DNA of 64,000 nt. Origin: Lunularia cruciata. Its lineage: Eukaryota > Streptophyta > Marchantiopsida > Lunulariales > Lunulariaceae. The notes under the pieces are model-generated. The model had not been told where the DNA came from. It searched no databases and saw nothing but the letters and a program-made list of their open reading frames with translations. Position numbers and translations under genes: made by a program. The stretch is taken from positions 2,108,001 through 2,172,000 of the forward strand of contig OX419760.1 in NCBI GenBank assembly GCA_948567375.1. The letters are read 5' to 3'. This document shows positions 823 to 60,498 of this stretch, one piece after another (position 1 is the first letter of the stretch; every line of letters begins with the position of its first letter).

Positions 823-1463
823 TGTGTTGTGCGCATATACATCGTTACACAACATAGATTGTTGTCAACATCATACACTATAGAAGCACAACTCACATAT
901 CAGTCATACATAGGCTCTAAAGTGCCACAAGAATCAGATTGTTTACGATTCTGAATCCTCTCAACTCAGATCAGTACTTGATCTGTCACTCTATAAATTG
1001 CCAACAATTGTGCATTGATTACAGTCAAGCCATACCCACTCTAGCTAAGAGAATCCGGGTGACGCTCGGCCTGTGTCCACCATAGCCAAGAACTCGAAGG
1101 CTCAACATCATAGAAGTGACTCTCTGGAGCTGCACTTCAAAAGTATACCCTTGGACTCGAGCTAGGTCTGAAACCCTAATGGTCCCGCTGATGGCACACT
1201 CGACTGTGCAAACGGTGCAAAGTGACGGTGGGCCCCACCGTGAAGTCAGTACCCCGAACACAAAATTTGAACGTCGGAAAGTAATCTTTGAGAAACTACT
1301 GAAATAACTCTAACTACTATCACTGCAACTCCAATGTCCGAGCAATCTAGACGCAACACTACAAATGGCATGACAGCTGTCATGCGTATATACATCATTA
1401 CGCAACATACACTATAGAAGCACAACTCACACATAAGTCATACATAGGCTCTAAAGTGCCACA
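823..1463 (-). repeat. LTR-like block of methyltransferase gypsy element, copy 1
   Basis: This non-coding block recurs at 50,265-50,836 and partly at 60,030-60,498. It ends AAGTGCCACA, and is followed by a stretch that reads as a purine tract (AGGAGGGCAAT) on the minus strand. That is the polypurine tract plus TG start expected at the 3' LTR of a minus-strand element. A block of about 116 bp (GCATATACATC ... GTGCCACA) occurs twice, at its left and right ends, so this is either two abutting LTRs or one LTR with an internal duplication. The exact left edge is not resolved. Confidence 0.55.
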
Positions 1464-1639
1464 ATTGCCCTCCTAGTTGGCAGTTAGGTCCCTCTAACTC
1501 CTGATAGCCATCTACTCCAAGTATATGGTGAACCCTATGATGGGCAAAGATCAGGATGCCGGGTGCTATGGAGCTCCATCGTTAGTCATATGTCTACAAT
1601 CTATACCATATAAAAAATGAACTAGCTATAGGTCAAGTA

Positions 1640-1932
1640 CATCTAGGACATAAACACTGTCCCTAAGGAACCACTGTGAGGAGAGGAGTCATACATGGCA
1701 TATGCCATCCTCTTGAACAATTATCACACACTAACATAGTAGTAGCTCCACTAGAAGAGCCACATAACATACACCTCAAGCCTACACGTACAAGTGCCAA
1801 GCTTGGGTCCATAGTACCATCAATGTTTGGGAGGTGGCATGGTGCACAATTGCGCACATGATCCTTCCAAACAACATCATCACGTCCTTCTAACACAAGG
1901 ACTCCAAATGGAAAAACCTCACGCACTCTCAA
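1640..1932 (-). pseudogene. PHD finger at the end of a gypsy polyprotein, copy 1
   Basis: This is the C-terminal module of the minus-strand Ty3/gypsy element and follows the integrase tail. The zinc ligands read CMLC, then CDNC, then H and C of GWHMPCM, then the terminal CPRC. PHD fingers usually bind histone H3 tails, so by inference it could steer integration or bind chromatin, as chromodomains do in chromoviruses. A stop replaces a codon just before the last Cys pair and the conserved Trp is lost, so this copy is decayed. Two further copies lie at 51.0 and 51.5 kb. Confidence 0.75.
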
Positions 1933-2760
1933 GATAGTGCGGCCTGTCGAAACATCAAGTGTCGTTGGTGCTGTTTGCTGTAGATATACATAGTCTCATG
2001 GATGAAATCAAGGAATATAGGGTCTATAACATCCTCCTTGAATGGTAGCATAGTGTAAAGTATCTCTATGCTGAGCAATCGCCAAGTTCTCAAAGGCCAT
2101 CAGCATCACTCTCCGAAAGATCTCTTCCCATTGAGAACATGCGCTCATCCATACATTGGGGTCATCCAAGTCCAAAACTATAGTAGCATCTTGACGAATG
2201 GCTACATGTAAATCTGGATCTTGTCTATAGAGTAGAAAGTACAAAGAGAAGGATGCTAAGGAGGCTTGATGGCTGAACCGATAGCCCATGGCCAACCAAG
2301 GTAACTAGGGATCCCAATCTCCCAAGTGGCCTCTCTAAAAGTATGGTTTGCAGAATCTTCTCTTCACCGTCTGAACCACTCTCTATGCTAAGCCATCTGC
2401 CTCAGGGTGATCTTGGGATGTAGTACAATGATCAATCAAAGCCTTGTCACACAAGACCTGAAACTCCCCCAAGAACTCTATACTCTAATCAGTCAAAACC
2501 TCAATTGGTGCACCAAAATGACTAAGAACTCAATCCAAGAACGAGTAAGCTGTCCCTTCACTAGACTTGTGAGGAAGTGCCACCAACTCAATCCACTTGG
2601 AGAAATGCTCCACCATCACCAAAACATACCGATGATGTCTCATAGTCAATGGTCAAGGTCCAACAAAGTCCAAACTCCAATGGTAACTCAATCCCATGAG
2701 AGGTAATGGGTGTAATTGTGGCGTAGGAGCATTGAATGATACTCTAACTCGGTCTCAAAC
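1933..2760 (-). pseudogene. Ty3/gypsy integrase remnant, copy 1
   Basis: The integrase of the methyltransferase-bearing gypsy element is recognisable by alignment to the fuller copy at 51.9-52.6 kb. The C-terminal part (LAIAQHRDTLHYATI) and the core are present, but stops and frameshifts break it, for example between 2296 and 2400. It joins the PHD finger downstream and the zinc-binding and RNase H part upstream. It is not expected to be active. Confidence 0.75.
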
Positions 2761-3620
2761 CACACATTTTGCAACAAGCTGCTATACCTTGATCTGCATA
2801 CCGCACCACCAATAATGACTTTGGAGTAAGCTATATGTATGCTTTACTCCAAAATGTCCTAGCTCCGCATGAGCATGACGGACCAATTGTGGTCTTTGAG
2901 ATGGAAGTGGTACTACTCACACTCTACCATCCTCCCATACATGCAAAAGGTGTCTGCCCCCCAATCTGAACCATTTGGCTTGCTGAAGAACATGGTCTCT
3001 CTCCTTGGCCCCAACTGTGCCACCCACAACACCAGTGCAAAGATAGTCCATCACTAAGACATCATCATGAATGTCTCGCTATATTGTACCAATATCTTCA
3101 CTCTTTGGATCTAGGACCTCAATAACTCATCATGTACGCACTAAGAGAGATACCACCAAAGCCTCTAAAAATATACACAAAAAGGCCGATGCATGTCAAC
3201 CTGGCACCATCTCCTCATTTGTCTCACCATGCCAACGTGCTCCGTCTGATCCTGCTGGCTGGGATATGGGTTTCTACTCAACCCATCTGCATCACTGTTC
3301 ACCACTCCAGGTTTGTGAACAACCATGAAATCATACTCCTATAAAATAAGAGCACATCATGAAAGCTTCCCTGAAAGCTTGTCAAACTCCATCAACCACT
3401 TCAATGGTTGATGATTAGTGATGAGAGTGAAGGGGTTACCAAATAGGTAACATTGAAAATGTGCTACTGCCCAAACTTCTTCCAAGCACTCTCCCTCATA
3501 TGAACTATACTTTGCCTCTGCTGAATTGTTGGAGCAACTAGCATAGGCCACCACAAACTCCTTCCCCTCATCATCATGCTGGGTGAGCACCGCTCCAAGC
3601 CCCAACATACTCCAATCAGT
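2761..3620 (-). pseudogene. Ty3/gypsy RNase H and integrase zinc-domain remnant, copy 1
   Basis: The minus strand at 3357-3608 reads through RNase H motifs (LGLGAVLTQHDDEGKEFVVA, YSSYEGEC, VAHFQCYLFGNPFTLI, TNHQPLKWLME). Sequence down to about 2760 corresponds to the linker and HHCC region that is intact at 52,680-53,414. Stops and frameshifts interrupt the frame. In TDHQP, an RNase H hallmark, Asp has become Asn, which fits a C-to-T change on the opposite strand. Confidence 0.75.
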
Positions 3621-4500
3621 ATGAACCTGAAATGGTCATCCTCTGATCAGTCTCCTCAAAATAGGAACAGATGTCAACCTCTCCTTGAGCTCTACAAAAG
3701 CTCTCTCTTGCTCATCTCCCCAACACCACTCCTATATAAGCTTGGTCAGCTTCGTCAAGACCTTAGCAATGGCACTAAATCCTCTAACATAGCGACAATA
3801 GAAGTTTGCCAACCCAAGGAATGCTCACAATCTACTCACATTCATAGGCCGAGGAATACGTGCAATAGCCTCCACCTTGGTCTGCTGAACACCAAGTCCT
3901 CCAAGGTAGATAGTGTGACCCAAATACTCAACCTGCTCATGGAAGAACCTACACTTCCCAATATGTAATTTGAGTCCATGAGATCTCAACCTCTCAAACA
4001 CCTCCAACAATTGTCTCTCATGCTCCTCCGCAGTAGTGCTATAGACCAAAATGTCATCAATATAACACCGAGCAAAATCCAATCCAGCTAGGATCCTATC
4101 CATGACCCTCTGGAACTCAGCAAGAGCATTCTTTAACCCAAATGGTAAGAACCTCCACTGATATAACACATCCTTACCGTGAGGATCAATAGCCCAAAAT
4201 GATATCTTGGACTTATCCTCCTCCCTGATCGGCAACTGATGATATCCCGCTCAAAGATCCAAAGTAGTGAAGACCTTTGCATGCCCAATCGTATCAAAAA
4301 TCTCCTTTGGTGTAGGCATGGCATACCAATCAGCCCTGGTCTGTCAATTGATAGGACGGTAATCTCCACACATCCGCCTATCTGAGTAGTTGCCATACAT
4401 ATCCTTCTTGGCTTGTATCATTGTTGCTGATGCATACTCTCCATGTGAAATCTCCACCAAACCAACCTCAAAAAGGTCACTACTATGGCTTTGAATCAAT
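3621..4500 (-). pseudogene. Ty3/gypsy reverse transcriptase remnant, copy 1
   Basis: The frame at 3825-4235 contains the polymerase core: WRFLPFGLKNALAEFQRVMD, then the catalytic box CYIDDILVYS, then the thumb (KCRFFHEQVEYLGHTIYLGG). Upstream blocks occur in a second frame at 4133-4396. At least one frameshift and several stops are present. RT lies directly after the methyltransferase region in element orientation. Confidence 0.85.
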
Positions 4501-4633
4501 GTACTCTCCATCTCACTATATTGATAAGGACATCAGAAAACTAGTGTATCGCTAGTTAGCTCAATCTGTATATTAGGTCCCTTCAGAGCACCCAAATCCT
4601 TCATATTGAAGACAAAAAAACTTGTGTGGCTCC

Positions 4634-5060
4634 TCAAGAACCTCCAAACCCTCCATCTTTCCTCTCTAGTAAGCTTGGGTCCAAGATCTGGCTCCCAAGT
4701 ATCCTATGTAATTGTAGTAGGAGTGGAAGATATATTGATTGGCTGCTACCCTTGGGAGCAATAGTGTCATGCCCTCGACCATTAGAGGTCCCAACCTCTG
4801 TGTGAAAAACTCCCTCCACTTTGGCTGCAAGTTCCACACATCCTCTAGCTGCATCCCAAGTGGACCAAGAGTGTAATCCAAGTAGCCCACGCTCACTTGG
4901 ATGGACTCCAAGTAGACCACTCTCCCTAGTAGCTACTGGCTGTGTCCCAAGAATACCATGTCTATCACCCCCAACATATGCTTGAATTGTCTCAATAGGC
5001 ACAAGGCTCACAAGTGTCCGAGTGGTGATGCCTATCAAGCGCATCCTACGCTGCTCTGCC
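4634..5060 (-). pseudogene. Spacer between methyltransferase and RT of gypsy element, copy 1
   Basis: One open minus-strand frame runs from about 5212 down to 4634. Its N-terminal third is the end of the methyltransferase. The rest is a linker of about 130 residues that I cannot assign (RRMRLIGITTRTLVSLVPI, then a Gly/Thr-rich part). A counterpart of this linker, in broken frames, exists at 54.5-54.95 kb, so it belongs to the element and not to host sequence. Confidence 0.5.
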
Positions 5061-5069
5061 AAGCCAAGG

Positions 5070-6050
5070 CTCACTATCCAGGTCAAACAATTCAGGTCCA
5101 TAGCCTGACCTAACACCTGATACCTGGATGCCTTTGACACTACTGGAACAACAGTAATACCGGTGCAAAAACCCATTGCCTGCTCTCTCTCATTAGTGTT
5201 GGGCTCCACCAACTACTATAACTATGAGTCCCAAACAAGTCAAGGTCCTCCCTCTCAAAAAGAATGAGAGCCTAGGAAACTCATGAGTGTGGGAAATGCA
5301 GCTCTAGGCTATCCAACTAGGTTCACCATTGCCATAGATGACCTATCAGCCACTACCACTGTCTCAGATTGACGCCCAACATCCAAGATATCATCAACAA
5401 GGATGTGGTCAAGTTGCTAAATCCCATCATAAGCACGCTGTAGAACCTCTCTGGGTAAGAGGTTTGTCCACCAAAGACAAAGACAATGAGCCCGTGATCC
5501 CACTCTGGCTACATCTAACAATACAGCAAGTCCCATCCAAGAATGGACTTGATGTGTACTCGCCACCACTTTGGTGCGAGAATCACCCATCAAAGGAACG
5601 TTCTCCAAAAAGTAAGCTGGAAGAACAGATTGATGAACCTAGAGATGTTATAATATCCGTAACATCTCCCAAAACACACTAGAAAGAGGATCTTGAAGAC
5701 CCAAACCTCGGCCAACACGTGTATGTCCCTAACATGGCCATCCAAAAATCACCAAGTGAATAGGTCTATATCTCTCTAGATCATGCACCCCTACTAAGGA
5801 AATGTTTGCTAGTAGGACCTTATGGTAACCTTTGATTGCTGACATTGGTAATAACTCCGGATACCAATAGGCCAAGTGTGCCACATGATGTAGAGAGACT
5901 CGCCTAGTAGTCTCATCTCTCTCTACATACAAGTACCTTTGTACTCGTATACCCGCATGTAATATTGGAGTAGTCCGATGCTAATCCCACCAAAAAACTC
6001 CAATAGACATATCTCCTCTATTGCATATTGCCAAGCAATGAGTGTGGTAT
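5070..6050 (-). pseudogene. C5-cytosine DNA methyltransferase domain (DNMT3-like) in gypsy element, copy 1, decayed
   Basis: Read on the minus strand the motifs come in order: I (LEFFGGISIG, FGG codons 5986-5994), AGIRVQRYLYVERDE, the catalytic loop GWPC followed by a stop where PCQ is expected (5729-5737), VI (ENVPL, ENV at 5597-5605), VIII (DVARVGSRAHCLCLWWTNL), IX (NEREQAMGF) and X (RYQVLGQAMDLN). C5-methyltransferases move a methyl group from S-adenosylmethionine to cytosine. The order is not circularly permuted, unlike plant DRM proteins, and the spacing resembles DNMT3. Several stops and at least two frameshifts mark it as dead. The element breaks off at 6138, where the chromovirus LTR begins. 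Confidence 0.8.
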
Positions 6051-6138
6051 CCAGAGGTGTCAAAGTAATCAACTCTAGAGGCTCATCCTCACACTCATCT
6101 CTTGATGGTACGAAGGCTCCACTCCAAGCCTGCTGCAC

Positions 6139-50264: not shown

Positions 50265-50836
50265 TGTCATGTGTATATACATCGCTACACAACATACATC
50301 GTTGTCAACATCATACACTATAGAAGCACAACTCACACATAAGTCATACATAGTCAGTTGGGCACTGATTACAGTCAAGCCACACCCACTCAAGCATAGA
50401 GAATCTAGGTGACGCTTGCCGGCCTCTGTCCACCATAGCCAGGAACTCAAAGGCTCAACATCAGAGAAGTGAGCTCTCTAGAGCTGCACTTCAAAAGTAT
50501 ACCCCCTGGACTCAAGCTAGGTCTGAACTCTAACGGTCCCGCTAATGGCACACTTGACGGTGCAAACGGTGCAAAGTGACGGTGGGCCTCACCGTGAAGT
50601 CAATACCCCAAACACGAAATCTGACCGTCGGAAAGTAGTATTTGAGGAATTGCTAAAATAACTCTAACTACTATCACTGCAACTCCAGTGTCCGAGCAAT
50701 CTAGATGCGACACTACAAATGGCGTGATAGCTGTCGTGTGTATATACATTGCTACACAACATACATCGCTGTCAACATCATACACTATAGAAGCACAACT
50801 CACACATAAGTCATACATAGACTCTAAAGTGCCACA
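50265..50836 (-). repeat. LTR-like block of methyltransferase gypsy element, copy 2 (element 3' side)
   Basis: It matches 823-1463. The inner part (GGGCACTGATTACAGTCAAG ... GACACTACAAATGGCGTGA) recurs at 60,110-60,498 at the other end of the element. It ends AAGTGCCACA. As in copy 1 the GTGTATATACAT ... CATACATAG block occurs at both its ends. Confidence 0.6.
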
Positions 50837-51003
50837 ATTGCCCCTAGCTTCCGTTTAGGTCCCTCTAACTCCAGATAGCCATCTACTCCAAGTATATGGT
50901 ATACCCTATAATGGGCAAAGATCAGGAGGCCGGGTGCTATGGAGCCCCATCGTTAGTCACTTGTTTGCAATCTATACCATATAAAGAATGAACTAGCTAT
51001 AGG

Positions 51004-51438
51004 TCAAGTACATCTAGGACATAACCACTGTCCCTGAGGAACCACCGTGAAGGGAGGAGTCATATATGCCATATGCCATCCTCTTGAACAACTATCACAC
51101 ACTAACATAGTAGCAGCTCTACCAGAAGAGCCACATAACATACACCTCAAGCCTGCACGTACAAGTGCGAAGCTTGGGTCCATAGTACCATCAATGTTTG
51201 GGAGGTGGCATGGCGCACAATTGCGCACATGATCCTTCCAAACAACACCATCATGTCCTTCCAACACAAGGACTCTAGATGGCAAACTCTCATGCACTCT
51301 GAGGATAGTGCAACATGTCAAAACATCAAGTGTCGTTGGAGCTGTCTGCTGTAGATATACATAGTCTCTTGGATGAAATTGACAAATTGAGGGTCTTTGA
51401 GGGCAAAGATCAGGAGGCTGGGTGCTATGGAGCCCCAT
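51004..51438 (-). pseudogene. PHD finger, outer (distal) unit, all zinc ligands intact
   Basis: The residues VWKDHVRNCAPCHLPNIDGT lead into the PHD finger: CMLC, then VCDSC, then GWHMAC, then GQWLCPRC, giving all eight C4HC3 ligands and the conserved Trp. The frame ends CPRCT and TGA. The module would bind histone H3 tails if it behaves like other PHD fingers. It is separated from the integrase by the duplicated unit, so it is not in frame with it. Confidence 0.82.
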
Positions 51439-51515
51439 CGTTAGTCGCCTGTCTGCAATCTATACCATATAAAGAATGAACTAGCTATAGGTCAAGTACA
51501 TCTAGGACATAACCA

Positions 51516-51888
51516 CTATCCCTGAGGAACCACCGTGAAGGGAGGAGTCATACATGCCATATGCCATCCTCTTGAACAACTATCACACACTAACATAGTA
51601 GCAGCTCTACCAAAAGAGCCACATAACATACACCTCAAGCCTGCACGTACAAGTGCGAAGCTTGGGTCCATAGTACTATCAATGTTTGGGAGGTGGCATG
51701 GCGCACAATTGCGCACATGATCCTTCCAAACAACACCATCATGTCCTTCCAACACAAGGACTCTAGATGGCAAACTCTCATGCACTCTCAAGATAGTGCA
51801 GCCTGTCAAAACATCAAGTGTCGTTGGGGCTGTTTGCTATAGATATACATAGTCTCTTGGATGAAATCGACGAATTGAGGGTCTTTAA
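51516..51888 (-). pseudogene. PHD finger, inner unit joined to integrase tail, one stop
   Basis: Same domain as the outer unit. A TAG replaces the Gln before the conserved Trp (PQG, stop, WLCPRC), so the last Cys pair would not be made. This unit is contiguous with the integrase. Confidence 0.82.
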
Positions 51889-52660
51889 CCTCCTCCTCGA
51901 ATGGTAGCATAGTGTAAAGTATCTCTATGCTGAGCAATTGCCAAGTTCTCAAAGGCCATTGGCATCACTCTCTGAAAGATCTCTGCCCGCTGAGAACATG
52001 CACTTTTCTATACATCTGGGTCATCTAAGTCCAAAACTACAATAACATCTCAATGAATAGCTGCAGGTAAATTTGGATCTCGTCCATAGAGTATAAAGTA
52101 TGAAGAGAAGGATGCTAAGGAGGATTGTTGGCTGAACCGATAGCCCATGGCCAACCAAGGCAATTGGAGATCCCAATCTCCCAAGTGGTCTCTAATCAAA
52201 CCATACTTTTGCAATCCTCTCTTCACCGTCTGAACCACTCTCTCTGCTAAGCCATCTGCCTCAAGGTGATCTTGAGATGTAGTATGATGATCAATCAAAG
52301 CCTTGTCACACAAGACCTAAAACTCTCCCAAGAACTCTATACCCTGATCAGTCAAAACCTCAATTGGTGCACCCAAATGACTAAGAACTTGATCCAAGAA
52401 CGAGTAAGTTGTCCCTTCACTAGACTTGTCAAGAAGTGCCACCAACTCAATCCACTTGGAGAAGTGCTCCACCATCACCAAAACATACCGATGATGTCTC
52501 ATAGTCAATAATAAAGGTCCAACAAAGTCCAAACTCCAATGGTATTCTAATCCCATGATAGGTAATGGGTGTAACTGTGGCGTAGGAGCATTGAATGATG
52601 CTCTAACTCAATCACAAACCACACATCTGGCAACAAACTATTGTACCTCGGTTTGCATTC
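51889..52660 (-). pseudogene. Ty3/gypsy integrase, copy 2
   Basis: The DDE core is visible: first Asp in EYHWSLDFVGPL, second Asp in EVLTDQGIEFLGEF, Glu in HLEADGLAERVVQTV. The C-terminal part reads PWLAMGYRFSQQSSLASF and continues SYFILYGRDPNLPA. Breaks lie at about 52,045 and 52,315. Integrase inserts element DNA into the host genome. Confidence 0.88.
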
Positions 52661-53640
52661 CGTGCCACCAATAATGACTCTAGAGTAAGCTATATGTACG
52701 CTTTACTCCAAAATGTCCTAGCTCCTCATGAGCATGACGAACTAACTGTGGTCTTTGAGATGGAAGTGGTACTACTTGTACTCGACCATCCTCCCATACA
52801 CGCAAAAAGTGTTTGCCCTCCAATCTGAACCGTCTGGCTTGCTGAAGAACACGGTCTCTCTCCTTGGCCCCAACATTGCCACCCACAACACCAGTGCGAA
52901 GATAGTCCATCACTAAGACATCATCATGAATATCTTGCTGAACTATACCAATATCTTCACTCTCTGGATCTGTGACCTCAATAACTCCTCCTGTATGTGT
53001 TGAGAGAGATACCACCAAAGCCTCAAAAAATATACATAGAAAGGTAGATGCATGCCAACTTGGCACCATCTCCTCATCTGTCTCACCATGCCAATGTGCT
53101 CCAGTCTGATCCTGCTGGCTGGGACATGGGTTTCTACTCAACCCATCTGCATCACGGTTCACCTCTCCAGGTCTGTGAACAACCTTGAAATCATACTCTT
53201 GTAAAATCAAAGCCCATCGTGCAAGCTTCCCTGAAAGCTTGTTGGACTCCATCAACCACTTCAGTGGCTGATGATCAGTGATGAGAGTGAAGGGGTTACC
53301 AAATAGGTAACATCGGAAATGTGCTACTGCCCAAACTGTTGCCAAGCACTCTCCCTCATATGAACTATACTTTGCCTCTGCTGAATTGTTGGAGCAACTA
53401 GCATAGGCCACCAAAAACTCCTTCCTCTCATCATCATGCTAAGTGAGCACTGCTCCAAGCCCCAACATACTCCAATTAGTATGAACCTGAAATGGTCGTC
53501 CTTTGATTGGTCTCTTCAAAATAGGAGCAGATATCAACCTCTCCTTGAGCTCTATAAAAGCTCTCTCCTGCTCGTCTCCCCAACACCACTCCTATGTTAG
53601 CTTGGTCAGCTTTGTCAAGGCCTTGGCAATGGCACTAAAT
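52661..53640 (-). pseudogene. Ty3/gypsy RNase H and integrase zinc domain, copy 2
   Basis: An open frame of 244 codons (52,680-53,414) includes AKYSSYEGECLATVWAVAHF, TDHQPLKWLMES, VVHRPGEVNRDADGLSRNPC and the start of the HHCC domain (HAHEELGHFGVKRTYSLL). The first RNase H Asp lies upstream in a different frame. This is the best-preserved part of the element. Confidence 0.9.
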
Positions 53641-54504
53641 CCTCTAACATAGCAGCAATAGAAGTTCGCCAACCCAAGGAATGCTTGCACTCTGCTCACA
53701 TCCATAGGCCAAGAAATACGTGCAATAGCCTCCACCTAGGTCTGCTGAACACCAAGTCCTTTGGGGTAGATAGTGTGACCAAAATACTCAACCTACTCTT
53801 GGAAGAACCTACATTTCCCAAGATGTAATTTGAGTCCATGAGATCTCAACCTCTCAAACACTTCCAACAACTATCTCTCATGCTCCTTCACAATAGTACT
53901 ATAAACCAAAATATCATCAATATAGCACCAAGCAAAATCCAATCCAGCTAGGATCCTATCCATGACCCTCTAGAACTCAACAGGAGTGTTCTTTAACCCA
54001 AATGGTAAGAACCTCCACTGATATAACACATCCTTGTCGTGAGGATCAATAGCCCAAAATGTTGTCTTGGACTTATCCTCCTCTCTGATCGGCACTGATG
54101 ATATCCCGCTTGAAGATCCAAAGTACTGAAGACCTTTGCATGCCCAATCACATCAAAAAACTCCTCCGGTGTAGGCATGGCATACCAATCAGCCCTGGTC
54201 TGACGGTTGATAGGACGGTTGATAGGTAATCTCCACATATCCGCCTATCCATGTAGTTGCCATGCATATCCTTCTTGGCCAGCATCACTATCGTTGATGC
54301 ATACTCTCCATGTGAAATCTCCACTAAACCAACCTCAAAAAGGTCACTATTGCGGCTCTGAATCAATGTCTTCTCCATGTCACTATAACGATAAGGACGT
54401 TGGAAAACTGGTGTATTGCTAGTGAGATCAATCCGTATACCATGTCCCTTTAGAGCACCCAAATCCTTCATACTGAAGGCAAAACAACTCGTGTGGCTCC
54501 TCAA
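53641..54504 (-). pseudogene. Ty3/gypsy reverse transcriptase, copy 2
   Basis: The frame at 54,148-54,504 reads FAFSMKDLGALKGHGIRIDL, FQRPYRYSDMEKTLIQ and GLVEISHGEYASTIVMLAKK, which is the RT N-terminal part. After frameshifts the minus strand reads GYHQCRSE, the FLPFGLKNTPVEFxRVMDR-like block, and CYIDDILVYS at about 53,900-53,930. The catalytic Asp pair is intact. Confidence 0.88.
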
Positions 54505-54944
54505 GAACCTCCAAACCCTCCGTCTTTCCTTCCTAGTAAGCTTGGGTCCAAGATCTGGCTTCCAAGTATCCTTTGTAACTGTAGTAGGAGTAGAAGACGT
54601 ACTAACTGGCTGCTACACTGGGCCCTTGTGAGCAATAGTGTCATGCTCCCGACCACTAGAGGTCCCAACCTCTGTGTGAAAAACTCCCTCCACTCTGGCT
54701 GCAAGCTCCATGTCCTCTAGCTGCATCCCATGTGGACCAAGGGTGTAATCCAAGTAGCCTATGCTCACCAGGATGGACTCCAAGTAGACCACTCTCCCTA
54801 GTAGCTACTGGATGTGTCCCAAGAATACTATGTCCACTCGGTCCATCACCTCCAACATGTGCCTAAATCGTTTAGATAGGCACAGGGCTCACAAGTGTCC
54901 GAGTGGTGATGCCTACCAAGTGCATCCTACGCTGCTCTGCCAAG
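54505..54944 (-). pseudogene. Linker between methyltransferase and RT, copy 2
   Basis: It corresponds to the linker at 4634-5060 in copy 1. No domain is recognised. Frameshifts and stops are present. Confidence 0.45.
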
Positions 54945-55925
54945 CCAAGGCTCACAATCCAGGTCAAAAAATTTAGGTCCGTAGCCTGACCTAACACCTG
55001 ATGCCTAGACGCCTCTAACACTGCTGGATTTATGGTAATACCGGTGCAAAAACCCATCCCCGCTCTCTCTCATCACCGTTGGGCTCCACCAACTGCTGTA
55101 ACTGTGAGTCCCAAACAAGTCCAAGTCCTCCCTCTTGAAAAGCATGAGAGCCTAGGAAACTCATGAGTGTGGGAAATGCGGCTCTAGGCTGTCCAACTAG
55201 GTTCACCACTGCCATAGGTGACCTATCAGCCTTTACCACTGTCTGAGATTGACGCCCAACATCCAAATATCATCAACAAGGATGTGGTCAAGTCGCTAAA
55301 TCCCATCATAAGCATGATGTAAACCTCTCTAGGTAAGAGGTTCGTCCACCAAAGACAAAGAAGATGAGCCCATGATCCCACTCTACCTGCATCTAACAAT
55401 ACAGCAGGTCCCATCCAAGAATGGATTTGATGTGTACTCGCCACCACTCTGGTGTGAGAATAACCCATCAAAGGAACGTTCTCTAAAAGGTAAGCTAGAG
55501 AAACAGACTGATGAACTTGGAGATGTTGTAATACCCGTAACATCTCCCAAAACACACCAGAACAAGGATCTTGAAGACCCAAACCACAGCCCGCACGTGT
55601 ATGTCCTTGACATGGCCATCCAAAAATCACCAAGTGAATGAGCCCATTTCTCTCTAGGTCATGCACCCCCAATAAGGAAATGTCTATTGGTAGGGCCTTC
55701 TGGTAACCTCTAACTGCTGACATTGGTAATAACTCCGGATATCGATAGGCCAAGTGTGCCACATGATGGAGAGAGACTCGCCTAGCAGTCTCATCTCTCT
55801 CTACATAAAAGTACCTCTATACTTGTATACCCGCCTGTAACACCGTAGCTAGTCTGGTGCTAATCCCACCAAACAACTCCAATAGACATATCTCCTCTAC
55901 TGGATACTGCCAAGCAATGAGTGTG
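54945..55925 (-). pseudogene. C5-cytosine DNA methyltransferase (DNMT3-like) inside a Ty3/gypsy element, copy 2
   Basis: All main C5-methyltransferase motifs occur in canonical order: I (CLLELFGGISTRLA; FGG codons 55,865-55,873), II (AGIQV, RYFYVERDE), IV (LVIFGWPCQGHTRAG; PCQ codons 55,607-55,615), VI (AYLLENVPLM; ENV codons 55,475-55,483), VIII (AVLLDAGRVGSWAH, LWWTNLLP), then a recognition-type region with PRAAFPTLMSF and GLVWDS, IX (NGDERERG) and X (HQVLGQATDLNFLTW). The Pro-Cys catalytic pair is intact. FPTLM...WD...GF...LGQA and the AxxV-x-AH-R-x-R-like motif VIII point to DNMT3 over DNMT1/CMT. Plant DRM is excluded by order because DRM is circularly permuted. The long frame 55,226-55,762 is open; a TAG near 55,830 and frameshifts near 55,060 and 55,260 break the rest. 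It lies between protease and RT. Confidence 0.87.
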
Positions 55926-56440
55926 GTATCCAGAGGTGTCAAAGCAATTGCCTCTGGAGGCTCATCCTCACACTCATCTCCTAATGGTACGAAGGCTCCA
56001 CTTCAAGCCTACTGCACCAACTGATTTGCATGCTGCTACAATGCCTCCTCTGAACTCCACAATGGAACATCCAAAGTGGATGGAACAATCCCACTCTTAC
56101 TCCAAAGCTGAGTGATCTCCTCTGGTACTGGAGTATCGCATTGGCATTCCCCTCCAACAAGTCACCAGGCCAAGTAACTGCACCACTGAAAGCTAAAACT
56201 AAGCTGCCATGGTCCTGAACTGTAGTGAGCCAAGACTGCCACTACTAAAGCGTACTGGTAGGCAACATACCCGTCCCTCACCAGACTGCCAACCAGGTCT
56301 ATAAGAGGCTGTCTCCTCCCAATAGTCAATGCTAAAACCCATGGGGTATAACACTGCTCCCCCAACTAGACATCATATGACTCAGCTATTATCGCAATAG
56401 CCTGAGCTCTCACCACCGGGCTATCAGTCGAATGACCAGG
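55926..56440 (-). pseudogene. Region between protease and methyltransferase, copy 2
   Basis: Minus-strand text such as GLVEISxG-unrelated CQCDTPVPEEITQLW and AFVPLGDECEDEPPEAIALT leads into methyltransferase motif I. It may be a tether or N-terminal extension of the methyltransferase. No domain is recognised. A stop-broken frame at 56,162-56,365 is also unassigned. Confidence 0.4.
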
Positions 56441-56640
56441 CTGAACCTAGAGAACAAGCTCCCCACGTGTGATGTACTATGTCGAACCACCACCTAGAGA
56501 TGTCTGGATATGAAATAGACACCTCTCCACATCGGTCTTCCGTAACTCCAAACCAACAACTGCAGCCTTCCCCAACATAAGAGGTTGCGCACCAGAGTCT
56601 AACAAGACTCTCTATGGTGTATAGAACTTCCCTAAAGGTC
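56441..56640 (-). pseudogene. Gypsy aspartic protease, copy 2
   Basis: VLLDSGAQPLMLGKAAV carries the Asp-Ser-Gly active site, followed by GLELRKTDVERCLFHIQTS. The active site is kept, while nearby stops (TAG at about 56,610) break the frame. Confidence 0.7.
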
Positions 56641-58630
56641 CCACCAAATGGAAAATCCCCCTCTAGTTATCCAATAGGACAACACTAGGTGTGAACCATG
56701 ATCTCTCAAAGGCCTATCTAGCTAGCAACTCCTCCAATCTAGCCGTTGCTGCTTGCCATAAACCACTGGTCGCTGAATGAATCCCATGCTCCTCAACCAA
56801 GTTAGCTCCACTCTCAACCACCTCTGCCCTAGTAGTAAGAACCACATCATCCTTACTCTCACAAAGTGTGGTAGCCAACCGGAACACTGGGGTTGGGTCA
56901 ACTCCCAATGTAAACATGTCATTGACCAAAAACAAAGGACGCCACATAATCAGCTGAGCCGCCCCCGCTAGACTCAGTCTGTGTAGTAGTAGGTGGTTGA
57001 CTAGCAAGTAGTCCATCATGCACTCCATCACTACCTACCACACCTACACTAGGACGTCTAGGAACCATGGATGTTGTCTGCAATGCCTCAGATAGCGTGA
57101 AAGACTGGGGAAGTCTGACCTGTCTCCCAACCTCTCCTCTCTATGGGTCCAACTCCACTAATGCTCCTCTAGGCTCTGGAGCACGTACTGCACTCCTAGT
57201 CACTACTGCAGATGCATCCACCTGTGCTGCTCCGCGCATGAAATCCAAAGCATCTTTGTCACCAGTATATGAGTTGGAAGCCTCAGCACCCGAATCTAAT
57301 CTCCTTCGAGCAATAGCCATACTAGCCAATCTCTGCTCCAACTGCTCAATCCGAGTAGCCATAGTTATGTCAGAAGTAAGGGCAGGTACTACACCCCTAC
57401 TAGGTGTAGATCCTCTACCACCACCTCTACCACCTCGTCCTCCATGAACTAGAGCTCCTCTACTACCTGCCATAGCAGCCCCACCACTCCGTAACTCCGG
57501 GTGTAGGTCAAAACACCGGTCACTAGTGTGACCAAATTTGTGGTAGTGCTCATACTACCTCTATGCTGGCTGTGATGCACCGAAGGGATCAAGTCCGCTG
57601 CCTTGAGTACACTCTCTCCTATGGTGAGGTCCACCACAAGTCCAACAAGCAACACTACCACTCATTGGCTGCTGCTGACCCAAAAATGAAGGTAATGGTC
57701 TAACTACAATAGGCCCTCCACTCGCTCCATAGGATCTGGGCTGTCCACCTTGTCCTCAAAAACCAACTGGGCGTGGTGCACTCTGCTGCACTCTAGAAGA
57801 AGTCACAGCCATGGATGAGGTCTCCCTACCAAATCCAAATGTCACCACTCTCTCCTCCACCATGTTGAGCTCAATACGCTGAGCCAAACCAAAGACCATT
57901 GCCAAAGTAGGCAAAGTAGCCTACAATAACGTAGCATCACAAACTCTATGTCGTAACTCCTTGTCTAGTATCCCATACCAAAACTAGACTGCTTGGGCCT
58001 CAATAACTCCCTAAGTGAAACTGATCAGCAGCCTCATGCGAGTGTATGCCTTGCATAGGCTCTCTCCAGCCTTCCATTGGAACTCCTGCAAGCTCCTCAC
58101 CTTGTCAGTCCGCACTCCTTGGTAATTCTGCTTCAAAAACAAGAAGAACTCCACCATGGGGTTAAACCTTGGTACCACACCACCTCATGCAGCGGTACCT
58201 CCACTCATAGTAGCACTATCTCCAACTAGTGCACCTCCACTAGCTCCACTAACACTACTTGAGCTAGAACTCGTAGGTACAGCCAATCTACTCTTGGCCA
58301 CCAAACCTGAAGTGATAGGGACATAGTTCGGAGACCAATACTGTCTCTATAACTTGATCTCCTCCAAATGAGCTCTCTCAAACTCATGGTAGTCAGCCAT
58401 TGGCGGATCCTCCAGATGCTGAAACAACCCCTTCCATGCCATGAAGGATGTAAACAAAGTCGGGTTCCGTATCTGCTGCAGATCACACCAACTATCAAAC
58501 TCTTGGATGAAGTCATCCAACTCAATGGTACCCATTGTACTAGAGTAACGCCTAGGGCCTTTGGAGGCCCCATAAATCTAGTCCATGTCCCACAACAACG
58601 GTGCAGACACACCAAGTGCACTCTCAACTA
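56641..58630 (-). pseudogene. Gypsy gag with zinc knuckle, copy 2
   Basis: From right to left: an N-terminal part (MGTIELDDFIQEFDSWCDLQ, then FTSFMAWKGLFQHLEDPP), the gag core (KVRSLQEFQWKAGESLCKAY), a CCHC zinc knuckle (CWTCGGPHHRREC, about 57,615-57,655), an RGG-type Gly/Arg-rich segment (GGRGGRGGGRG), a coiled-coil-like RIEQLEQRLASMAIARRR, and a spacer to the protease. Many stops, mostly TAG, interrupt it. The RGG segment would bind RNA by analogy. Confidence 0.75.
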
Positions 58631-60029: not shown

Positions 60030-60498
60030 ACTTCTTTGATGTAATCAAATTGTTTATCACTCTCAACTCAACTCAACTCAACTCAGATTAGTACTTGATT
60101 TGTCACTTTATAATTTGCCAACAATTGGGCACTGATTACAATCAAGCCACACCCACTCAAGCATAGAGAATCCAGGTGACACTCACCGGCCTCTGTCCAC
60201 CATAGCCAAGAACTTGAAGGTTCAATATCAGAGAAGTGAGCTCTCTGGAGCTGCACTTTGAAAGTATACCCCCTGGACTTGAGCTAGGTCTGAACCCTAA
60301 TGGTCCCGCTGACGGCACACTTGATGGTGCAAACAGTGCAAAGTGATGGTGGGCCCCACCGTGAAGTCAGTACCCCAAACACAAAATCTGACTCTCGGAA
60401 AGTAGTCTCTGAGGAATTGCTGAAATAACTCTAACTACTTTCACTGCAACTCTAGTGTCCGAGCAATCTAGATGCGACACTACAAATGGCGTGACACA
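60030..60498 (-). repeat. LTR-like block of methyltransferase gypsy element, copy 2 (element 5' side, truncated)
   Basis: It matches 930-1375 and 50,359-50,735, including TGGTCCCGCTGACGGCACAC and GACACTACAAATGGCGTGAC. It contains (CTCAA)5 at about 60,061-60,087. Homology stops at 60,498, so the GTATATACAT ... GTGCCACA end seen in the other copies is missing here. Confidence 0.6.

Follow-up and report, generated by a model that had tools for sequence, protein, structure and literature searches.

A Ty3/Gypsy retrotransposon family of Lunularia cruciata carrying a DNMT3-type cytosine methyltransferase, a PHD finger and a candidate leaky stop codon

The 64,000-nt stretch of Lunularia cruciata DNA analyzed here (OX419760.1; the window) lies on contig 10 of the 74 contigs in the 565.8 Mb genome that we searched, and holds on its minus strand a Ty3/Gypsy long terminal repeat (LTR) retrotransposon that carries a cytosine C5 methyltransferase (MTase) domain and encodes a C-terminal PHD finger (Table 1). 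The element is assigned to Ty3/Gypsy by its LTRs and by the order protease, reverse transcriptase (RT), RNase H and integrase. An earlier note on this DNA had read it as a retrotransposon with a DNMT3-like MTase between protease and RT and with a PHD finger, and each part of that reading is borne out. The longest open MTase piece of the window copy (55229-55816) matches Pfam PF00145 (E = 4.1e-5; score 23.6 bits, cut-off 22), motifs I, IV (PC), VI (ENV), the VIII region and X follow one another in linear, unrearranged order on the minus strand, the protease motif LLDSGAQP and the RT motif YIDDI flank the domain, and PF00628 recovers the PHD finger both in the window and in an open copy elsewhere in the genome (L027; 7.4e-10). 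Pfam matched none of three shorter MTase pieces of the window copy, its RT piece 54151-54612 or two pieces from the region upstream of the protease. The window MTase is spread across three reading frames and this copy is therefore dead, while in the second, broken copy in the window the MTase is recognizable, with motif IV gone and 11 stops in the domain.

Table 1. Features of the retrotransposon in the window
Feature	Position	Strand	Basis
5' LTR (matched part)	60122..60494	-	91.2% identical to 50355-50727
Gag CCHC-like zinc knuckle (CWTCGGPHHRREC)	57606..57647	-	motif reading alone
Aspartic protease motif LLDSGAQP	56582..56605	-	motif reading
DNMT3-type C5 cytosine MTase domain, frame-broken	54930..55905	-	PF00145 on open piece and motifs; outer limits are our reading
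MTase motif I LFGGIST	55856-55876	-	motif reading
MTase motif IV GWPCQG	55604-55621	-	motif reading
MTase motif VI LENVP	55472-55486	-	motif reading
MTase LWWTNL block (VIII region)	55337-55354	-	motif reading
MTase last block ERERG	55057-55071	-	motif reading
In-frame TAG, followed by CAGCCA	54613..54615 (TAG)	-	fits UAG-CARYYA, plant-virus leaky-stop context
RT, broken over several frames	53796..54612	-	reading of open pieces; YIDDI at 53910-53924
RNase H (RT_RNaseH, PF17917)	53193..53435	-	Pfam E 2.1e-26
Integrase, zinc-binding H2C2 and rve core	52320..52763	-	PF00665 1e-9; PF17921 7.9e-5, 23.1 bits, slightly below 25.5-bit cut-off
Second PHD finger, from tandem duplication	51498..51632	-	placed via 488-base offset from first; motif read within 51561-51707
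PHD finger, C-terminus of integrase polyprotein	51010..51144	-	PF00628 4.1e-9
3' LTR (matched part)	50355..50727	-	direct repeat of 60122-60494; exact LTR ends not settled
Second, broken copy of element	1005..6138	-	89% identical to 51401-56017, 88% to 50355-51396

The MTase is of DNMT3 type, with DNMT3A/B nearest both by sequence, where DRM2 (E = 0.016) and HaeIII (0.063) follow among PDB matches, and by fold, as found for a Calypogeia relative (P0002). Catalytic fold and motifs are common to the animal enzymes and the element's MTase; the latter reads PCQ where the compared DNMT3A row has PCN, Pfam does not find the PWWP and ADD domains of DNMT3A/B in the element, and the element's PHD finger is encoded far off, behind the integrase.

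Copies of the family are numerous in the L. cruciata genome. Searches gave at least 150 places that scored for the MTase (of 11,044 candidates at first look) and at least 150 for RT (of 42,382), and a pattern with exact flanks and a free codon at the MTase/RT junction occurred 1,146 times, and never when reversed, which sets a lower bound on copies. Open-frame copies outside the window match PF00145 at 5.1e-7 and 8.9e-6. In one copy (L025) the open frame that ends after the MTase is 1,432 residues long, and in L027 an open frame of 1,037 residues after the MTase encodes RVT_1 (5.8e-32), RNase H (3.1e-36), H2C2, rve integrase and the terminal PHD finger; a further copy (L024) also has direct terminal repeats. 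No Gag match above the Pfam cut-off was obtained (Retrotrans_gag, E = 0.054 in L025). The earlier note had allowed that the MTase block might be a chance insertion, absent from other copies. We picked 20 RT places, by eye outside the list of MTase places, and read 504 bases at the expected MTase spot: 17 encode the MTase there, at 92-98% identity, and 10 of those are stop-free. Chance insertion into a single copy was rejected, the MTase being present in most other copies examined, and the MTase is an integral, lasting part of this retrotransposon family.

The analysis adds three things to the earlier note: an in-frame, leaky-stop-like signal between MTase and RT, another order of domains (a second architecture), and relatives among named bryophytes and algae. 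In L025 and L027 the Gag-protease-MTase frame and the RT frame are the same frame, split by one codon. The junction was readable in 36 of 39 distinct copies (L004, L010 and the second window copy were dropped for more than 8 mismatches), and its codon is TAG in 35 and AAG in one, followed by CAGCCA in 34 and CAACCA in two. Genome-wide, 1,109 of the 1,146 exact-flank junctions have TAG, and by our count the 100 junction places listed comprise 97 TAG, 3 TAA and no sense codon. An in-frame UAG followed by CARYYA, with both sides open, is what we take to be the plant-virus leaky-stop context of the tobacco mosaic virus (TMV) type, a consensus that was absent from three papers searched for the motif. 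It reportedly goes back to Skuzeski and colleagues in 1991. The TMV-type signal and that of the element have the same stop and hexamer, in frame on both sides; in the element, unlike in TMV-type leaky UAGs, the stop separates Gag-protease-MTase from RT.

Since the copies within this genome are close kin, their agreement on TAG does not by itself show constraint. A contig from outside the genome (CADCWO010000201.1; L086) encodes Gag-protease-MTase up to TAG CAATCA and then, in the same frame, RT-RNase H-integrase and a PHD-like end, and its best segment is 46% identical to P0002. The stop is flanked by different peptides in the two (ALSATK*QSPAV in L. cruciata, APKGPV*QPVST in L086) and UAG-CARYYA is common to both, from which we read the stop as older than the L. 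cruciata copies and present in the DNA of two lineages. In the MTase tree L086 and the L. cruciata copies group with 17 database proteins (20 rows; SH-aLRT 98). None of the 17 continues into RT and several terminate at corresponding positions (e.g., ...ALSATK), with the limit that some (P0013, P0017) may be cut by contig ends. Outside the group MTase and RT stand in one open reading frame (ORF) in Klebsormidium nitens P0154, Closterium P0133, P0067, P0068 and others, and some rows there also lack RT (P0066, P0137). Certain annotated Marchantia and Sphagnum gene models span the stop, which we take to reflect predicted introns. L086 has RNA structure after the UAG (z = -3.96). It is filed under a metagenome-assembled genome of an uncultured Synechococcales cyanobacterium, yet is a Gypsy retroelement with MTase and PHD finger; it is surely eukaryotic and probably contamination of that assembly, and its end repeats its own start, as a circularly assembled LTR element would.

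Three successive searches widened the set of relatives. The first gave 65, including Marchantia, Calypogeia, Sphagnum troendelagicum, S. fallax and Monoraphidium; the second gave 83, adding Closterium and a weak Haematococcus match; and the third gave 392, among the 120 listed of which were many Closterium proteins and one from K. nitens (P0154). The 90 listed relatives from P0155 onward cover 10-22% of the query and were not used; relatives also occur in metagenomes. Two architectures exist: A, with the MTase before RT, and B, with the order RT-RNase H-MTase-integrase-PHD. B forms one group in the MTase tree (21 rows; support 99), which was built from 67 rows of our choosing with Sphagnum P0015 left out for its short MTase match, and again in the RT-RNase H tree (37 rows; 95). 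The integrase tree is poorly resolved and splits B, and in a first FastTree run, on 115 rows, B came out as a group at 0.85 whose sister consisted of two A rows. Architecture A may be the older, tentatively so because the outgroup of the MTase tree is one DNMT3A fragment whose branch is very long (2.91). Across 55 proteins the MTase distances correlate with those of RT at 0.79, with none of 2,000 permutations as high, which argues that MTase and element have been inherited together, with either a single move inside the polyprotein or an exchange. The catalytic Cys is kept in 113 and the Glu in all 115 of the aligned rows, which include relatives down to about 30-40% identity. A phage or bacterial origin of the MTase was also considered and rejected: IMG/VR gave 29 loci with 28-48% identity over short stretches, a genome scan gave L086 and four Streptomyces loci at 31-35%, and among open frames above 200 residues at the IMG/VR and Streptomyces loci none had a 250-residue match to the MTase profile and none entered the tree.

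Among proteins with at least 230 residues beyond the integrase, a PHD finger is found in 34 of 35 of architecture B, 6 of 12 of architecture A and all 10 MTase-integrase fragments. Its nearest PDB fingers are those of CHD4, KMT2D, MLL3, PHF12 and KDM5-type proteins, several of which bind histone H3 unmodified at lysine 4. Chromoviruses, Ty3/Gypsy elements with a chromodomain after the integrase, likewise carry a chromatin-reader module at the integrase C-terminus; theirs is a chromodomain, and the element's is a PHD finger. Pfam finds no chromodomain in ORF2 of L027 or L030, the PHD finger taking that place in the element, and no PHD match in L030, which is also long. For one protein of architecture B (P0110) the precomputed domains list both a chromodomain (PF00385) and a PHD finger. 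In Closterium, P0105 runs well beyond the integrase without a PHD finger, P0133, P0134, P0137 and P0138 end too early to tell, and the reader module may have been lost; the latter four list a zinc knuckle (PF00098).

Retroelements that have captured methyltransferases were mentioned in the earlier note for Klebsormidium and dinoflagellates, in agreement with what PMC5890265 (de Mendoza et al. 2018) reports: K. nitens Gypsy and dinoflagellate DIRS elements carry DNMT3, and the DIRS enzymes methylate CG de novo in yeast. A 2025 study restates the streptophyte and dinoflagellate cases (PMC12344493). KnitGypsy-Dnmt3 is, like ours, a Gypsy element with a DNMT3-type MTase in Pol (PMC5890265), and the K. 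nitens protein in our trees, P0154 (KFL_009030040), has the same order (protease-MTase-RT-RNase H-integrase), with MTase and RT aligning in the same trees; from species and domains we infer that P0154 is the published element. It differs from the L. cruciata element in holding MTase and RT in one ORF, where ours has the UAG between them, and in its DIRS-like repeats (PMC5890265, Fig. 4 legend), where ours has direct terminal repeats (window and L024). The text of PMC5890265 makes no mention of a PHD finger in KnitGypsy-Dnmt3, and P0154 is cut off ahead of the place where one would lie. The dinoflagellate SymbioDIRS-Dnmt3 and SymbioLINE-Dnmt are also retroelement-borne, and are described in the same source as DIRS and LINE elements with tyrosine recombinase or endonuclease and as independent acquisitions, unlike our Gypsy element.

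A 2019 article states that methylase-bearing transposons are absent from land plants (PMC6338049); annotated proteins of Marchantia polymorpha, Calypogeia fissa and two species of Sphagnum speak against that absence, for bryophytes. The non-subscription literature searched yielded no bryophyte case of such an element, and none in which a PHD finger behind an integrase occurs together with an MTase. As far as these searches reach, the land-plant members, the UAG-CARYYA stop, the PHD finger after the integrase and the second architecture are new, and this is the first land-plant case found, at very high copy number, with a leaky-stop-like arrangement that groups the MTase with Gag and with an integrase that bears a PHD reader. 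DNA methylation normally costs retrotransposons, and an MTase kept over deep time raises the question of why; Marchantia and Sphagnum are workable laboratory plants for these elements.

We propose a mechanism that, taken whole and drawn from sequence comparison, we consider about equally likely to be right or wrong. Most ribosomes would halt at the UAG and make Gag-protease-MTase, and a minority would read through it to add RT-integrase-PHD, such that the MTase would be packed into the particle in Gag-like amounts, in excess of RT. There it would methylate the new double-stranded complementary DNA (cDNA) before integration, self-methylation being our best guess, and the PHD finger, at the place held by the chromodomain in chromoviruses, would anchor the integrase at a particular histone H3 state. 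Each new copy would enter pre-marked and be kept quiet by host maintenance enzymes, with low host damage, cDNA protection and long persistence as the outcome for the element. The MTase could also methylate new insertion sites. The larger claim, of an ancient green-lineage clan of retrotransposons that writes its own epigenetic state, with a leaky-stop-dosed DNMT3-type writer in the particle and a PHD-tipped integrase choosing chromatin, and insertions born silenced, we regard as possible and on balance doubtful. If true, a pairing of writer and reader comparable to that of MTase and ADD within DNMT3 would have been rebuilt, and with at least 1,146 junction copies the bryophyte host methylome may have been shaped by it.

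Several observations weigh against this proposal. Selection on the MTase within the genome is weak: in alignments confined to stop-free, gap-free copies, the ratio of nonsynonymous to synonymous substitution rates (dN/dS) was 0.38 for the MTase (15 open copies) versus 0.19 for RT-RNase H (8 copies), with 0.39 for the protease region (20 copies) and 0.44 for the PHD region (6 copies), and it was near 1 for the integrase (0.98; 6 copies) and Gag-protease (1.04; 4 copies), both with small dS, and for the tail between MTase and stop (0.80; 20 copies). The 10 RT-picked open MTase copies gave 0.48 (bootstrap 0.35-0.60), overlapping a neutral simulation (0.82; 0.48-1.21), so that conservation among distant relatives is the better evidence for constraint on the MTase. 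The Pro of motif IV is replaced by Glu in 25 of the 115 aligned rows, and 3 of the 20 RT-picked copies had no MTase at the exact expected spot. The stop is absent where a relative has a single ORF, as in K. nitens P0154, Closterium P0133 and architecture B, and high MTase dosage is therefore not required for this type of element; L027 has no RNA structure after the UAG beyond chance (z = 0.65). Compared with younger copies (L025, L027, L028), window positions 52000-57000 have C>T changes at 25% of CG, 20% of CHG and 4% of CHH sites, versus T>C at 2.5-2.8%, a decay which indicates that this old copy was formerly methylated in CG and CHG and which does not point to any one enzyme. Such decay, examined in a single decayed copy, is also expected from host MET1/CMT on any plant transposon. 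For KnitGypsy-Dnmt3, the closest relative that has been tested, no methylation was seen in yeast, a result its authors call inconclusive (PMC5890265).

That yeast result would also fit an MTase that leaves DNA unmethylated and instead acts on RNA (element RNA or the primer tRNA) or binds nucleic acid as a component of the particle; the position on the Gag side of the stop suits RNA handling, and we consider this role unlikely. The stop itself might not be recoded, in which case RT would come from its own transcript or from reinitiated translation, or the copies with this stop might together be one dead lineage, a rather improbable reading: the recent shared ancestry of the L. cruciata copies makes their agreement count for little, but the frame is equal on both sides, UAG-CARYYA recurs in two lineages with different flanking peptides, the clade includes additional predicted ORF1 proteins whose ends correspond, and 21 of the 150 RT places listed share the 1037-residue open frame of L027, which starts after the TAG, one of them with an internal TAG (our count).

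Roles proposed for retrotransposon accessory domains in general (PMC6338049) would allow the MTase to be a counter-measure or public good whose targets are competing transposons, DNA viruses or promoters of the host, and not the element. No other target is linked to it here and co-inheritance with RT is at least as compatible with a part in the element's own cycle, and we judge this quite improbable. Very improbable, in our view, is that the MTase, catalytically dead or neutral, is a passenger carried by the element's success; the weak within-genome dN/dS agrees with it, as do the stops inside the MTase domain of 24 of the 39 distinct copies (two window copies included), but a passenger would have lost the catalytic Cys and Glu that distant relatives keep.

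Within 48-64 kb of the window no inverted repeat pair of at least 60 bases was found, and inspection of the exact LTR ends and of any target-site duplication gave no settled boundaries. The integrase tail of the window copy, with its PHD finger, is duplicated in tandem over 486 bp (50913-51398 and 51401-51886; 96.5% identity).
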